NCBI RefSeq assembly: GCF_040359615.1
Contig: NZ_CP132942.1
Location: 1,550,001-1,614,000, forward strand
Direction: 5' to 3'
DNA: 64,000 nt
DNA from: Tunturibacter psychrotolerans
Lineage (GTDB): Bacteria > Acidobacteriota > Terriglobia > Terriglobales > Acidobacteriaceae
Part shown: positions 50,358-56,874 of the stretch, piece by piece
How the letters are laid out: the number at the start of each line of letters is the position of its first letter
Position numbering within the stretch: position 1 is the stretch's first letter
Made by a program: the position numbers and the translations under genes
Notes under the pieces: model-generated
What the model was told of the DNA's origin: nothing
The model's input: the letters and a program-made list of their open reading frames with translations, nothing else
Databases searched by the model: none

Positions 50358-51311
50358 TCAGCGGCCGTGTTCTTCGAGGTATTTTTCGACCTCGAGGGCG
50401 GCCATGCAGCCGGAACCGGCGGCGGTGATGGCCTGGCGGTAACGGCGGTCCTGGATGTCTCCGCAGGCGAAGATGCCGGGGAGGATTTCGCCGTTGAGGG
50501 TGGTGAAGACGTTGTTGCGAGTGATGATGTAGCCCTCGGAGTCAAGGTCGATCATGCCGCGGAAGGCTTCGGCGTTGGGGATGTGGCCGATGGCGAGGAA
50601 CATGAAGGAGACGGGCAGGACGTACGCTTCGCCAGAGACCTTGTTTTTGACGCGGAGGCCCTTGACGTCCTTGTCCTCTACGCCGAGCACCTCTTCGACG
50701 ACGGTGCTGGAGAGGAACTTGACCTTGGGATGAGCTATGGCGCGATCGAGCATGATCTTCGAGGCGCGGAACTTTTCGCTGCGGTTGATGATCGTGACCT
50801 TGGTGGCGAAGCGGGTGAGAAAGAGAGCCTCTTCCATGGCAGTGTCTCCGCCGCCGATGACGGCGATCTCTTTGCCCGAGGCGAAGAAGCCGTCGCAGGT
50901 GGCGCAAGAGGTGACGCCGTGGCCGATGAGGGCCTGCTCGGAGGGGAGATTCAACCAGCGTGCACTGGCGCCCGAGGCGATGATGAGAGTGCGGGCGTGG
51001 ATGGTCTCTTTGCCTAGGTTGAGGGCGAAGGGACGTTTGGAGAGATCGATGGAGCTGAGATGGGCGAGGCGCAGCTCTGCCCCGAAGCGGACCGCCTGCT
51101 TCTTCATGTTCTCGATGAGGTCGGGGCCTTGGACGCCCTCGGGCCAGCCGGGGAAGTTTTCAACCAGCGTGGTGATGGAGAGCTGGCCTCCGGGCTCGTG
51201 CCCTTCGAGGACGAGGGGTTTGAGGTTGGCGCGGCCAGTGTAGATGGCGGCGGTGAGTCCGGCGCACCCGGAACCGAGGATGACAGTGTCGTGCGTGATG
51301 TTTTCGGGCAT
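50358..51311 (-). CDS. trxB: Thioredoxin reductase
   Basis: A 317-residue low-molecular-weight thioredoxin reductase. The FAD loop VILGSGCAGLTAAIYTGRANLKPLVLEG, the redox-active Cys136/Cys139 in SCATCDGFF, the NADPH loop IAVIGGGDTAMEEALFL and the C-terminal GEILPGIFACGDIQDRRYRQAITAAGSGCMAALEVEKYL are all intact. It reduces thioredoxin with NADPH in the cytoplasm. The ATG at 51311 fits the family start and lies past a GAGAG site; the longer frame upstream is not needed. Confidence 0.96.
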   Translation of the reverse strand: MPENITHDTVILGSGCAGLTAAIYTGRANLKPLVLEGHEPGGQLSITTLVENFPGWPEGVQGPDLIENMKKQAVRFGAELRLAHLSSIDLSKRPFALNLGKETIHARTLIIASGASARWLNLPSEQALIGHGVTSCATCDGFFASGKEIAVIGGGDTAMEEALFLTRFATKVTIINRSEKFRASKIMLDRAIAHPKVKFLSSTVVEEVLGVEDKDVKGLRVKNKVSGEAYVLPVSFMFLAIGHIPNAEAFRGMIDLDSEGYIITRNNVFTTLNGEILPGIFACGDIQDRRYRQAITAAGSGCMAALEVEKYLEEHGR

Positions 51312-51395
51312 ATGAGCTCTCTTAGTGTAAATGCGCCAGCGAGCGAAAAGATGCAAACCGGCCTTTTGGGCGTGTTTGGTGAAAGAATTGAGGTT

Positions 51396-51677: not shown

Positions 51678-52424
51678 ATGGCGGGGATGCTGCGAGTCTT
51701 TGTTCGGCTGAACGCTGCCGCCGTGCTGCTGATGGCTCCGATTGGCTGGGGGCAGGCCTCGTCCGCTAACGGAGCGCAAACAGCTACAGATGTTTTGCAC
51801 CAGATGTCGGATCGGGCGGACGTCATCTTCATTGGGCAGGTGCTGACGGTGCATCTTCCCGAGGGCGGGAGCCCGGCTTCCGGGATTGTAGAGATTCAGT
51901 TTCGCGTCGATGAGGCGATTCGCGGGTGCAAAACGGGGCAGCCGTATGTTTTGCACGAGTGGGGAGGGCTTTGGGCAGGAGGCAGCGGGAGATACCGTGC
52001 CGGTCAGCGATTGCTGATGCTTTTGCATGCGCCTGGCGCGGGAGGACTGAGTTCGCCGGTTGGCGGGCTTGATGGAGCGATTCCCATTCGGCAGAGCACG
52101 ACGGGGGCGCCGCCGGCGGAGAATGTAACGCCGCCTTCTCTGCCGTTTGTCGACCTTCGCTGGCTCGGAGCGAGAGTGCCGCGTGCGGTCTCCTATCGCG
52201 ACGAGGCGGTGCGCCCGGCGAATGCGTTTCCGCAGTTGAGTCCGGGACAGCAGCGGGTCAAAACGGTGGTCGCATCGGGTGCTCGTGCCGGGGATGCGCC
52301 GATGATTCTGCCGCTCGGTTATACCAGTGCCGCCGATGCGTCGATCCCGGCGCAAGAGGCTTCGGTGGAGGTAGTGCTGGGGTTGTTGGCCACGTGGCAG
52401 AAGGCGGAGCATGGCACGCCCTGA
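51678..52424 (+). CDS. Exported protein with TIMP/NTR-like beta-barrel pattern
   Basis: A 248-residue protein with a Sec signal (LNAAAVLLMAPIGWGQ). Residues ~38-125 read SDRADVIFIGQVLTVHLPEG, EIQFRVDEAIRGCKTGQPYVLHEW and YRAGQRLLMLLHAP, the strand order of prokaryotic TIMP/netrin (NTR)-like domains (D-VF-G-V ... F-V-E-KG ... F-G-YLV). The usual Cys-x-Cys start is not seen, so the assignment is a fold guess. The last 14 bases overlap the next gene, so the two are translationally coupled, and that gene encodes a matrixin-like domain. Confidence 0.6.
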   Translation: MAGMLRVFVRLNAAAVLLMAPIGWGQASSANGAQTATDVLHQMSDRADVIFIGQVLTVHLPEGGSPASGIVEIQFRVDEAIRGCKTGQPYVLHEWGGLWAGGSGRYRAGQRLLMLLHAPGAGGLSSPVGGLDGAIPIRQSTTGAPPAENVTPPSLPFVDLRWLGARVPRAVSYRDEAVRPANAFPQLSPGQQRVKTVVASGARAGDAPMILPLGYTSAADASIPAQEASVEVVLGLLATWQKAEHGTP

Positions 52425-55353
52425 CACCAGCTTACGAATTCAATTCAATGCGTGGTTGCAGACTGTCCTGTTCGTGCTGTTTTGCTGGTTTGCGACCGCA
52501 GCGACTGCGTTGGCTGGCGGTCCACGCTGGGTGACGGGGCCGCCGTACTTTACGACCTCCGGAGCTCCGGTGGTTTGGTATACGAACCAGCCGCTTTATT
52601 TCACCGATCCTGGGGATCTGAGCTCGACGGTGAACCACGCGGCGGCGGACGCTCTTGTTGCTGCTGCGGCGGCGGTCTGGACTGTTCCGACTGCAACCCT
52701 TGTGCTGTCGCAGGGCGGAGCGCTGAATGAGCATGTCAGCGGAGCCAATGCTTTTCTGGGATCGAATGGGCCCATCTTTCCTGCCGATGTGCAGAGCAGC
52801 AACTATCTCGCCAAGCAGATCGCGGTGATTTACGACAGCGATGGGTCAATTACAGACCTTCTGCTGGGCAATGGGGCGAGCGATCCTTCGGGATGCCTGC
52901 AGAATGGCGTGACGGAGAGCGTTGATTCGATCGTGCCGGCTGGTTTCATTCAGCATGCGATTCTGATTCTCAATGGCCGCTGCACCGGGGCTGCGCCTGA
53001 GCAACAGATGCAGCTGCAGTATCAACTGATGCGCGCGTTCGGTCGTGTGCTTGGGTTGGGTTGGTCGCAGACCAATGACAACGTCTTCACGGACAGCCCG
53101 CAACCTACGTTCGACCAGGCGATGTTTTGGCCGGTGATGCATCCGATCGATATCATTTGTGGCCCGTATACCTACCAGTGCATGCCGCAGCCATTCACTC
53201 TTCGTCCGGATGATCTGTCGGCGCTGGCGCAACTCTACTTTATCGATCAAGGGCAGGCGGGCGCGGGCAAGATGGATAGCCTGCTGAACGCGAACCTGTT
53301 TGATGGGCATGTCATCTTTCCTACGGGAGAGGGAATGCAAGGGGTCAACGTCGTCGTGCGCCGATGGGCACAGTTTACCCTGCCGTCGGCGATCGAAGAC
53401 AGGTATACGGTTTCCAGTGTGTCGGGCGCTCTGTTTCGCCAATCGAACGGCAATCCTGTGAGTGGCCCAGACTCGTCGTTTGCCGGAAGCCAAGGGAGCC
53501 AGAATTCATCGGACGAGGGCTATTATTTGCTGGACCGAATACCGATGCTTCCTGGCACCTATCAGCAGCTGGTTATAGAGACAGAGCCTGTCAATCCGCT
53601 GTATACGGGACAATATGCTGTGGGACCGTATGTCGCCAATACCGTCGCGCCGTCTGGATCGGATCCGGTGACGGCCTATGGAATCTTCGGCAGCTACGCC
53701 CAGCCGTTCGTAGATTTTGTGACGAACGATGCAGCTGCGAGCTGCAATACGACCACGGACGGAACCGAAGCCACTCCTGCGGCTGTGGCGTCGCAGGGGT
53801 GGTGGTCCGGGTTGCTCTGCGGGTATGGGCACTCCGCCTGGTCTTCGCTCTCGGTGAAAGCGAACCGCTCGGCGACGTTTGAGGTTACGGCGGAAGATGA
53901 ACAGGGATTCGCGACCAGCGCCAAGGCGATGCCGGTGATTGGAATTTGGAATGCGACAGACGTGCTGGGCTCGTTGCCTGGCGTTGCGGGTGCTGGTGAG
54001 GCCTTCAACGGCGAGGCCAATGGGATGACTACGCTGACCACTACGTTTACGCAACCAAATCAGTTACGAATTGGGATCGCCGATCAGCGCGGAGATGGAC
54101 GCCCGGACTTCAATTACGAGGCACGCGTACTTTATGCGGATTCGCTGAGTCCTGCAACGGTGAGCGCTGCGGGCGGTACGATTACGATCAGTGGAATGGG
54201 CTTTCGTACGGGCAATGCGGTGACAGTGAACGGTGTTGCCGCCACAGTTTCGAGCTGGACCGCAAACACGATTGTCGCTACTGTGCCTTCGATTCACGCA
54301 CTCGGCTCGAGCACGGCGCTGGTTGCCGATGTCGCAGTTACGGATTTGTCTACCGGTGGGACAACTGTGATGACGCAGTCGCTGAGCTATGCTGCGCCGG
54401 TGCCTGTGCTTAGCCTGGTGAGTGCGCCTTCGGGTCTGGTGCAGCTCTCGCAACCTGCAGCGACGCCGTTTGCCGTGAAGGTGCTGAATGGCGATGGAGC
54501 GACTCCGGTCGTGGGCGAGGCTGTGACCTTTACCGCGACGAATGGCTCGGTGCAATTTTCTGCTTGTGGAACGGCCAGTTGTACCGTGAGTACAGGTGCG
54601 AATGGCATCGCCTCGACGGTTGTTACACCGATGAGCGCGGGCGGGATCACGCTGCAGGCGACCGGAGTGGACGGTACGGCGATTGCATCTTTCACGGCGG
54701 CTACACGCGTCCAAACCGCGACTGCGATACAGGCGGTCGAATATATCGTGGAGGGCGCGACTGTGGAATGGAGTCCGCAGCTTAGCGTAACCGATAACTT
54801 TGCTTCGACTGCGGGACTGCCGGTTGCTTGGCAGGCAATTTCAGGGGCGGTTTCGGTGTCGCCGGCAAGCTCTCAGGTCAACTCGCAGGAGATGGCGCAG
54901 ACTGTTGCGACGGCTGGTCCGTTGACGGCTGGAGGACAGGCTGTCCTTTCTGGCTGCGCCTGGACGAACACCTGTGCTTCGTTTACGACGCAGGGCGTCG
55001 ATCTTGCGGACCTGCGCTTGATTGCGGTTAGCGGAGCTGGTCAAATCGTTTCAGCGTCGGGTTCGCTTGCGTCGGTGGTGTTGCAAGTGACGGACACGGC
55101 ATCGCATCCGGTTGCTGGCGCTGTCGTTCAGATCTACCAGACGGTTGATGCCTGGGAGGCGGCTTGTCCGGACCGGGGGCGTTGTCCGATTGCGCCTGTT
55201 CTTGCTTCGTCGCAGTCTTCGGCCGTCTCTGATGCGAATGGTTTTTTGACCGTGGCCCCGCAGCAGACTTCGAGTATCGCTGAAACGACGAATCTTGTTG
55301 CCGCTACAGGCACGCAGGGTTTTATTTCTCTTGCTCTGCAAAAGCAGCCCTGA
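52411..55353 (+). CDS. Secreted protein with degenerate matrixin-like domain plus IPT/TIG and Ig-like domains
   Basis: A 980-residue exported protein; signal near residues 14-36 (WLQTVLFVLFCWFATAATALA). Residues ~37-285 follow a matrixin-type metalloprotease layout: a helix AAADALVAAAAAVWTVPTATLVL, the active-site helix as RAFGRVLGLGWS (208-219), a Met-turn at VMHP (242-245) and the terminal LRPDDLSALAQLYF. Aligned to HExxHxxGxxH, the ligands are replaced by Arg208, Arg212 and Trp218 and the Glu by Ala209, so zinc binding is unlikely. Further domains: a carboxypeptidase-regulatory-like region (~300-400), an IPT/TIG domain (~575-665; LSPATVSAAGGTITISGMGF) and bacterial Ig-like domains to the end. 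It is probably a binding or structural pseudo-protease. Confidence 0.75.
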   Translation: MARPDTSLRIQFNAWLQTVLFVLFCWFATAATALAGGPRWVTGPPYFTTSGAPVVWYTNQPLYFTDPGDLSSTVNHAAADALVAAAAAVWTVPTATLVLSQGGALNEHVSGANAFLGSNGPIFPADVQSSNYLAKQIAVIYDSDGSITDLLLGNGASDPSGCLQNGVTESVDSIVPAGFIQHAILILNGRCTGAAPEQQMQLQYQLMRAFGRVLGLGWSQTNDNVFTDSPQPTFDQAMFWPVMHPIDIICGPYTYQCMPQPFTLRPDDLSALAQLYFIDQGQAGAGKMDSLLNANLFDGHVIFPTGEGMQGVNVVVRRWAQFTLPSAIEDRYTVSSVSGALFRQSNGNPVSGPDSSFAGSQGSQNSSDEGYYLLDRIPMLPGTYQQLVIETEPVNPLYTGQYAVGPYVANTVAPSGSDPVTAYGIFGSYAQPFVDFVTNDAAASCNTTTDGTEATPAAVASQGWWSGLLCGYGHSAWSSLSVKANRSATFEVTAEDEQGFATSAKAMPVIGIWNATDVLGSLPGVAGAGEAFNGEANGMTTLTTTFTQPNQLRIGIADQRGDGRPDFNYEARVLYADSLSPATVSAAGGTITISGMGFRTGNAVTVNGVAATVSSWTANTIVATVPSIHALGSSTALVADVAVTDLSTGGTTVMTQSLSYAAPVPVLSLVSAPSGLVQLSQPAATPFAVKVLNGDGATPVVGEAVTFTATNGSVQFSACGTASCTVSTGANGIASTVVTPMSAGGITLQATGVDGTAIASFTAATRVQTATAIQAVEYIVEGATVEWSPQLSVTDNFASTAGLPVAWQAISGAVSVSPASSQVNSQEMAQTVATAGPLTAGGQAVLSGCAWTNTCASFTTQGVDLADLRLIAVSGAGQIVSASGSLASVVLQVTDTASHPVAGAVVQIYQTVDAWEAACPDRGRCPIAPVLASSQSSAVSDANGFLTVAPQQTSSIAETTNLVAATGTQGFISLALQKQP

Positions 55354-55491: not shown

Positions 55492-56874
55492 ATGGCGGTA
55501 GCGACGGCAGTGGGAAGCGGACCTGTACGGAAGCGGGTCGTCATTCTGGGTGGGGGTTTTGGGGGCATCAATGCGGTGACGGGTCTGGGGAAGCTTCCGG
55601 TTGACGTCACACTTGTGGATCGCAGAAACCATTACTTATTTCAGCCGTTGCTCTACCAGGTGGCGCTCGCGGTTCTTTCTCCGGCCGATATTGCGCAGCC
55701 GATTCGTGCGCTTGTACGCAATCATCCGAATGTCGACGTGCTGATGGATGAGGCGGTGGGATTCGATGTGGCGCAGCGGCGCGTACATCTGAAGACGGGT
55801 GTGGAGCTTGAGTACGACTACCTGATTGTCGCGACGGGCTCGACGCACTCTTATTTTGGAAAGGACGAGTGGGCTAAGCTTGCGCCCGGACTCAAAACAG
55901 TCGAAGATGCGACGGAGATTCGCCGGAGGGTTTTGCTCGCCTTCGAACTCGCAGAGCGGCAGATGATGGAGACCGGGACTCATCCTGCGCTGAACTTCGT
56001 GATTATCGGCGGGGGGCCGACGGGGGTCGAGCTTGCGGGAGCTATCAGCGACATTGCGCGACTGTACATGGCACGTGATTTTCGCCACATCGACCCTTCG
56101 ATGGCGAAGGTTCTTATTCTGGAGGGCGGCCCGAATATTTTGACTGCTTATCCCACGGATCTGCAACAGAAGGCGATTGAGCAGCTTGCCGAGCTCGGTG
56201 TGATGGTTCGGACCGGCGCCCATGTGAGTGATGTGCAGCCGGGTTATGTGATGGTGGGGGAGGAACGCATCGATGCGGTGGTTACGCTGTGGGCGGCAGG
56301 AGTGCAGGCCTCGCCGCTAGGCAAGATGCTTGGCGCGGAGACAGATAGACGTGGTGCGGTGATTGTCGATGGGCATCTTAATCCGCCGGGGCATCCGGAG
56401 ATCTTTATCTGCGGGGATCTTGCGCACTTCGAGCAGGATGGCAAGCAGGTGCCGGGTGTGGCTCAGCCTGCCATGCAGATGGGAACCTATGCTGCGAAAC
56501 GTATTGGCCGGTTGGTCGCTGCCGCCTCAGGGAGTGACGGGAGCGGCAAGGACAAAGAGTTTCGGTACTTTGACAAAGGCGATATGGCGACGATCGGACG
56601 CAAGGCAGCGGTTGCTAAGATCGAGTGGCCGTTCAAGGCACATTGGAGCGGATTTCCTGCGTGGATGACGTGGCTGGTCGTGCACATCTTTTTTCTTATC
56701 GGTTTTCGGAATCGGCTTGCCGTCTTCCGCCAGTGGGCGTGGACGTATCTAACGTTCAAAGATGGGGCGCGGCTGATTACGGGCTCGCAGGAGCTTCCCG
56801 GCTGGAATGCGCAGGAGGAACATACGGGAGTTCTTCCGACCAAACCGCTGGATATGAGTTCGCCCAAAACATAA
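55492..56874 (+). CDS. ndh: Type II NADH dehydrogenase (NAD(P)/FAD-dependent oxidoreductase)
   Basis: A 460-residue non-proton-pumping NADH:quinone oxidoreductase. FAD loop VVILGGGFGGINAVTGLGKLPVDVTLVDRRNHYLFQPLLYQVA; YDYLIVATGSTHSYFG; NADH loop FVIIGGGPTGVELAGAISDIAR; VTLWAAGVQASPLG; IFICGDLAHFE...VPGVAQPAMQMG. The C-terminus has the membrane-facing segment FPAWMTWLVVHIFFLIGFRNRLAVFRQWAWTYLTF. It passes NADH electrons to quinone at the inner membrane face. ATG after AGGAG. A strong hairpin terminator follows. Confidence 0.94.
   Translation: MAVATAVGSGPVRKRVVILGGGFGGINAVTGLGKLPVDVTLVDRRNHYLFQPLLYQVALAVLSPADIAQPIRALVRNHPNVDVLMDEAVGFDVAQRRVHLKTGVELEYDYLIVATGSTHSYFGKDEWAKLAPGLKTVEDATEIRRRVLLAFELAERQMMETGTHPALNFVIIGGGPTGVELAGAISDIARLYMARDFRHIDPSMAKVLILEGGPNILTAYPTDLQQKAIEQLAELGVMVRTGAHVSDVQPGYVMVGEERIDAVVTLWAAGVQASPLGKMLGAETDRRGAVIVDGHLNPPGHPEIFICGDLAHFEQDGKQVPGVAQPAMQMGTYAAKRIGRLVAAASGSDGSGKDKEFRYFDKGDMATIGRKAAVAKIEWPFKAHWSGFPAWMTWLVVHIFFLIGFRNRLAVFRQWAWTYLTFKDGARLITGSQELPGWNAQEEHTGVLPTKPLDMSSPKT

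Follow-up and report, generated by a model that had tools for sequence, protein, structure and literature searches.

Two overlapping plus-strand genes of Tunturibacter psychrotolerans (Acidobacteriaceae), here termed P1 and P2, are interpreted with moderate confidence as descendants of an ancient NTR-matrixin module whose protease has lost its zinc site, with P1 binding the resulting non-catalytic head. The pair lies in a 64,000-nucleotide stretch of contig NZ_CP132942.1 (positions 1,550,001 to 1,614,000), hereafter the window, the first letter of which is position 1 of the coordinates given below. P1 (51678..52424, +) encodes an exported protein of 248 residues with an NTR/TIMP fold and one cysteine, judging from its translation and predicted fold, and P2 (52411..55353, +) encodes an exported pseudo-matrixin of 980 residues with an Ig-type C-terminal part. 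The two open reading frames, their lengths and the 14 nucleotides shared by the end of P1 and the beginning of P2 (52411..52424, +) are as the initial annotation had described them, and the overlap spacing is identical in five close relatives (L002-L006).

Sequence and predicted structure together establish both folds, common descent with zinc-intact relatives, the new residues fixed across the lineage, purifying selection and a conserved gene order. In the proposed explanation, P1 and P2 would derive from a two-gene module of Acidobacteriota in which an exported NTR-fold protein precedes an exported matrixin metalloprotease, and the zinc site would have been lost in an ancestor of most sampled P2-carrying Acidobacteriaceae through the changes H208R and H218W and, mostly, E209A or E209V and H212R. 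The dead head, which now precedes TIG/Big_1 modules, would no longer cleave and would act in binding instead, carried outside the cell by an Ig-like stalk; P1 would attach to it in the manner of TIMPs and potempins on matrixins, though in a structural or capping role and not an inhibitory one. From fold and gene order we infer both the binding of P1 to P2 and an inhibition by P1 of the zinc-intact relatives. More tentatively, Acidobacteriota may own a TIMP-MMP-like module in which the NTR-fold protein binds the matrixin of the following gene, and of which the whole pair has turned non-proteolytic in Acidobacteriaceae, with the Arg/Trp-replaced head on its Ig-like stalk perhaps still gripped by its former inhibitor. 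Here a protease has apparently been converted to a non-enzyme in a single event, zinc-intact relatives still exist, and the neighbour gene is common to both groups, which makes the fate of an inhibitor-like partner after the death of its enzyme directly studiable; in addition, a large family (2,217 proteins) gains a predicted NTR fold and a probable partner.

Replaced zinc site and predicted folds

The head of P2 (52519..53244, +; residues 37-278) follows a signal peptide read from the sequence (52411..52518, +; residues ~1-36). At the position of HExxHxxGxxH of matrixins it carries RAFGRVLGLGW (residues 208-218), the beginning of the replaced zinc site RAFGRVLGLGWSQTND (53032..53079, +; residues 208-223), and the Met-turn VMHP follows at 53134..53145 (+; residues 242-245). 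Loci or heads without the zinc ligands are called dead and relatives keeping the motif zinc-intact. Profile-profile comparison of dead and zinc-intact heads by hhalign pairs RxFGRxxGLxWSQxN with HEFGHxxGLDHSQIN at an E-value of 1.5e-40, and the corresponding comparison of P1 profiles gives 3.2e-21; the head end is also common to both groups, reading LRPDD...LY in P2 and LAPDD...LYP in the zinc-intact relatives.

Eighty-eight dead loci were aligned, comprising 48 from the genus (the window's own included) and 40 from the family outside the genus. Position 208 is Arg in 88/88, Gly211 and Gly215 are each present in 88/88, and position 209 is mostly Ala or Val; position 212 is Arg in 82 loci, Gln in four and Ser and Asn in one each, position 218 is Trp in 85 and Tyr in three, and residue 243 of the Met-turn is Met in 87 and Leu in one. 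None of the 88 has the HExxHxxGxxH motif, the zinc ligands being replaced in 40/40 of the family loci fetched outside the genus, and the genus consensus over 48 comparable loci is R[AV]FGR[VI][LIV]G[LVI][GAS]W[SA]Q.ND. Profile alignment and locus columns thereby corroborate the initial annotation, which had placed Arg208, Ala209, Arg212 and Trp218 at the motif positions with the glycines kept and had noted the Met-turn. An earlier count of 85 loci had required Arg and Trp/Tyr (no row failed); the 88-locus recount used alignment columns without such a condition. Arg208 is encoded by five different codons among the 85 loci. The ratio of nonsynonymous to synonymous substitution rates (dN/dS) against two relatives is 0.12 and 0.07 for the head, ~0.25 for P1 and ~0.15 for the rest of P2. 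Judged from sequence, the replacement of the zinc-site residues is conserved and is not decay, because Arg208 is invariant, Trp218 is kept in 85/88 and head dN/dS is 0.07-0.12.

The predicted structure of the P2 head has a matrixin fold and that of P1 an NTR fold (OB barrel plus helix). Both the matrixin scaffold of the second protein and the TIMP/NTR-like nature of the first, as initially proposed, are thus upheld, the former also by profile homology to zinc-intact relatives; the initial reading as a whole is partly supported. The predicted NTR core of P1, a helix followed by five strands, spans 51783..52091 (+; residues 36-138; model block with predicted local distance difference test, pLDDT, values of 84-97) and the structure model places a C-terminal helix at 52365..52412 (+; residues 230-245); the signal peptide was read by eye at residues ~1-26. 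P1 has no Pfam or NCBIfam family match, and among the matches of the P1 profiles A2 (43 members, E up to 1) and A6 (20 members, E up to 0.1) the NTR/TIMP Pfam family is absent; neither profile has an invariant Cys. Matches of P2 to Pfam and NCBIfam cover only its C-terminal modules. Peptidase_M10 (PF00413) is matched by 0/46 members of the dead-head profile A1 at E up to 1, by 19/19 zinc-intact class sequences at E up to 0.1 (11/19 at 0.001) and by 8/9 long phylum relatives at E up to 0.01. P2 resembles that family in fold, Met-turn and homology to members, but its zinc ligands and catalytic Glu are gone.

Sequence search of the PDB with P2 found no match, and the zinc-intact profile gave weak matches to collagenase 3 and other metzincins (best E 0.033). 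Two polynucleotide kinases matched by profile A3 (best E 0.007) were rejected, as were 11 weak unrelated PDB matches of A6 at E up to 10, none of them a potempin. The P1 profile built from partners of zinc-intact heads matches the 2,217 proteins at E up to 0.001; among 120 of these listed no Pfam domain is present, and almost every one of the few names given is 'hypothetical protein'. Left out were L079-L083, whose copies are broken or fragmentary, and two rows that duplicate a place represented by another, L018 (by L084) and L085 (by L016); L004, L013 and L001 (the window's own locus) were omitted from profile A1, L149 from A3 and L148 from A4.

Zinc-intact relatives and gene order

In a 100-genome sample, 53 of the 60 genomes from the window's genus (its own counted) carry P2, with two weak short matches elsewhere; P1 occurs in 52 of these 60 and in 0 of the other 40. 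Relatives with P2 include Edaphobacter lichenicola, Granulicella, Terriglobus, Bryocella, Acidobacterium, Acidicapsa and Terracidiphilus. A profile of the P2 head matches 185 of 300 family genomes; 51 of the 79 genera are represented, among them g54, which is zinc-intact. The adjacency remarked upon in the window recurs across Terriglobia: P1 is directly upstream of P2 on the same strand in 45/48 genus loci, directly upstream in 27/40 family loci outside the genus, and upstream in 20/21 zinc-intact class loci. The remaining three genus loci comprise two without P1 on the stretch (P2 near the contig end) and L016, which has an inverted P1 fragment. The family loci and the 40 phylum loci were hand-picked from match lists (mostly strong or middling, spread over genera) and are not a random sample. 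A scan of 80 places, seeded partly by the dead motif, returned HExGHxxGxxH in 0/80, which is no test of the motif's absence, and several of its places are contigs of loci already fetched.

The same place as L016, fetched as L085 (5250-5620, genome G030), shows the P1 piece reversed between an open P2 and a small gene plus a trxB-like gene; this remnant is possibly a natural loss of P1 by short inversion, or an assembly error. In L066 (G051) an in-frame TAG stop interrupts P1 beside an open P2.

Profile search of the class revealed shorter P2 relatives both outside the window's family, in three others, and within it, in genus g54. Homologues retaining the zinc site, whose existence the initial annotation had raised as a question, are thus plentiful: HExGHxxGxxH and the Met-turn are present in 21/21 class relatives fetched, and the NTR-like P1 stands directly upstream in all of them except one whose contig starts inside P2 (a weak class match, G464 at 22 bits, was left out of the fetched set). 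Among 297 phylum genomes, family genomes included, the zinc-intact profile matches 122 and the P1 profile 90. Loci fetched outside the class carry the zinc motif in 40/40, of which 31 are canonical, seven have Asn for Gly and two a one-residue insertion, and an NTR-like gene lies directly upstream in 37/40, with none at L300, L326 and L328. Four of these NTR matches are weak (L334 E 8e-4, L335 9.5e-6, L313 5.8e-7, L330 4.7e-7), and the NTR gene of L320 lies 870 nucleotides before the matched part of P2. The variant HExGHxxNxxH occurs in L303, L317, L318, L320, L323, L324 and L325, and HEFGHFAGPLDH, with one extra residue, in L305 and L307.

A tree of 72 rows separates dead from zinc-intact heads by a single branch with support of 100/100, by which the zinc site would have been lost once within Acidobacteriaceae. 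Genus g54, of the window's family and with its zinc site kept, groups with another family in this tree and is either basal or acquired; one of its loci, L227 (G124), has two tandem copies of the NTR-like and zinc-intact matrixin pair.

P1 itself differs between the two groups. The motif N..N..LF is found in 0/69 P1 beside dead heads, against 20/20 in class and 22/37 in phylum partners of zinc-intact heads; QGxF in 7/69 against 20/20 and 32/37; and REW in 62/69 beside dead heads against 0/57 beside zinc-intact ones. Such differences fit a partner adapting to a changed surface. The idea that a P1 loop motif, EPHP, faces the zinc was set aside as not general: its Glu is present in 20/20 class partners of zinc-intact heads, but phylum partners are without the motif.

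Weighing of the interpretation and known systems

Several observations weigh against the proposed module history and binding. The P2 head model is weak near the Met-turn (pLDDT <50 at model residues 186-196 and 207-215), and Foldseek E-values for the predicted folds are modest, the best being 0.011 and 0.0011 and none <0.001. The P1 motifs were chosen after viewing the alignment, two looser patterns discriminate less (30/69 versus 56/57 and 45/69 versus 44/57), and all the motif differences may be the mark of one long shared branch. A cell anchor for the P2 stalk was not found. P1 is absent from 13/40 family loci, and in the class sample 14/59 own-family genomes with P2 have no P1 match (scored at E up to 0.001, ten candidates per genome), so P1 appears dispensable for P2 in some lineages. 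Nor does the association of Trp218 with P1 lend independent support, as the tie between their losses rests on one change: among 129 distinct sequences, the motif-seeded scan included, Trp218 is present in 85/85 with P1 adjoining, and in the 41 without P1 the position is Trp in 16, Tyr in 18, Phe in five and Leu and Asn in one each. The notion that Trp218 is kept because of P1 was rejected as evidence, the tree giving a single change and no usefully differing independent pairs. L372, missed by the pattern in this count, is dead as well (it reads RAFGRVLGLAWAQLDD), and contig ends truncated three loci.

The absence of P1 requires two changes in the 72-row tree and three in a 125-row tree of dead heads, and is best read, on these trees, as loss occurring two or three times, because P1 also adjoins zinc-intact relatives. 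At several of the 13 P1-less family loci the frames farther upstream resemble, by eye, the antisense of a thioredoxin-reductase gene like that beside the pair in the window, a pattern that fits a loss of P1 in place.

Among other explanations, the least improbable, although still unlikely, is that P1 assists the folding or secretion of P2 and its relatives in the periplasm, whether these are active or dead, without being part of the finished structure. That P1 adjoins zinc-intact and zinc-less matrixins alike would suit a helper indifferent to the active site, and the overlap in the window with short gaps elsewhere suggests co-translation; the NTR fold is, however, typical of extracellular binding modules, and two or three lineages retain P2 without P1. 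Lower still in probability is a guarding role, in which P1 would protect the cell against other metalloproteases, its own or those of competitors, and its position before P2 would reflect inherited co-regulation without contact. The fold is indeed common to protease inhibitors, and potempins inhibit proteases (PMC7296668). However, P1 in the own family almost always accompanies P2 (45/46 genomes with a P1 match in the class sample), and Peptidase_M10 is unmatched in the window genome and matched in 1/31 genus genomes (G030), a search with PF00413 only that is blind to P2 too.

It is improbable that the head of P2 has acquired a new activity, or uses an Arg/Trp pocket to bind some other metal or ligand, with P1 as its regulator; the fixation of Arg208 through five codons argues that the residue itself is selected, but no known catalytic constellation is recognizable and the motif has lost its three His and its Glu. 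The view of P2 as a decaying pseudogene can be practically dismissed, since broken or remnant copies in 6/60 genus genomes (G008, G017, G018, G021, G034, G055) and the lack of a P2 match in 7/60 are set against a single open frame in most, dN/dS of 0.07-0.15 and the wide occurrence of the head in the family, with neither dN/dS near 1 nor loss in most species observed.

For the preferred reading of P1 as the binding partner of a dead matrixin, the closest precedent is the potempin/KLIKK operons of Tannerella forsythia (potempin A - karilysin, PDB 8b2q). PMC7296668 describes potempin genes directly before KLIKK protease genes and inhibition of proteases by potempins. P1 likewise stands directly upstream of a matrixin gene, except that the window neighbour is no longer a protease: potempin partners are active, whereas P2 lacks the zinc site. 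Unlike potempins, which are lipoproteins, P1 has no lipobox and no Cys at the signal-peptide end; potempin A is absent among the 50 fold matches listed for P1, and no P1-potempin sequence match was found.

Animal TIMP - MMP pairs share the predicted combination of NTR and matrixin folds. TIMPs act via an N-terminal Cys and disulfides, whereas P1, with one Cys, does not have this arrangement, and MMP partners are active. Pseudo-ADAMs such as ADAM11 (motif QTLGQNLGMMWN), ADAM22 and ADAM23 are, according to PMC11266112, metzincin domains without zinc ligands that serve other roles and typically keep the Met-turn, so the proposed fate of P2 has precedent. They belong to the animal M12 family, whereas P2 is a matrixin from a bacterium, and its gene is paired with one for an NTR-fold protein. 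Among the papers listed on bacterial NTR/TIMP proteins with matrixins or metalloproteinase inhibition, metzincin pseudoproteases, Acidobacteria with matrixins, potempins and OB-fold inhibitors, from a collection without most subscription journals, no account of the pair was found.

C-terminal part of P2 and further observations

Beyond the head, the post-head segment of P2 (53247..53646, +) still aligns with the profile of zinc-intact relatives, the match in the window genome running from 1602510 to 1603646 (window 52510-53646), and its counterpart in some of those relatives is carboxypeptidase-regulatory-like. It is followed by a TIG domain (54139..54306, +; residues 577-632; PF01833, E 1.2e-8) and by a Big_1-like module (54352..54705, +; residues 648-765; from repeat rows of the genus search). 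Ig stalks are typical of surface and secreted adhesins. The window P2 has one Big_1-like copy and some relatives have several: in L069, L070, L076, L077 and others (G058, G031, G020, G005) the frame reaches ~1,300-2,200 residues against 980 in the window, the longest open frame among relatives being 2,218 residues, and Big_1 was confirmed in L070. A gain of the long C-terminal part together with the loss of zinc was considered but not adopted: zinc-intact class relatives are short (~450-550 residues where complete), but open frames of 850-1,980 residues occur in many phylum relatives. Nine long phylum relatives, their fetched ends cut, carry FG-GAP, TSP3 or no known module, and none has TIG or Big_1.

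P2 relatives at L362, L364 and L376 lie in metagenome bins labelled Rhodanobacteraceae or Nevskia soli, most likely mislabelled acidobacterial bins. The window pair is flanked by a thioredoxin-reductase-like gene on the minus strand (50358-51356) and a NADH-dehydrogenase-like gene (55492-56874), both named by eye.

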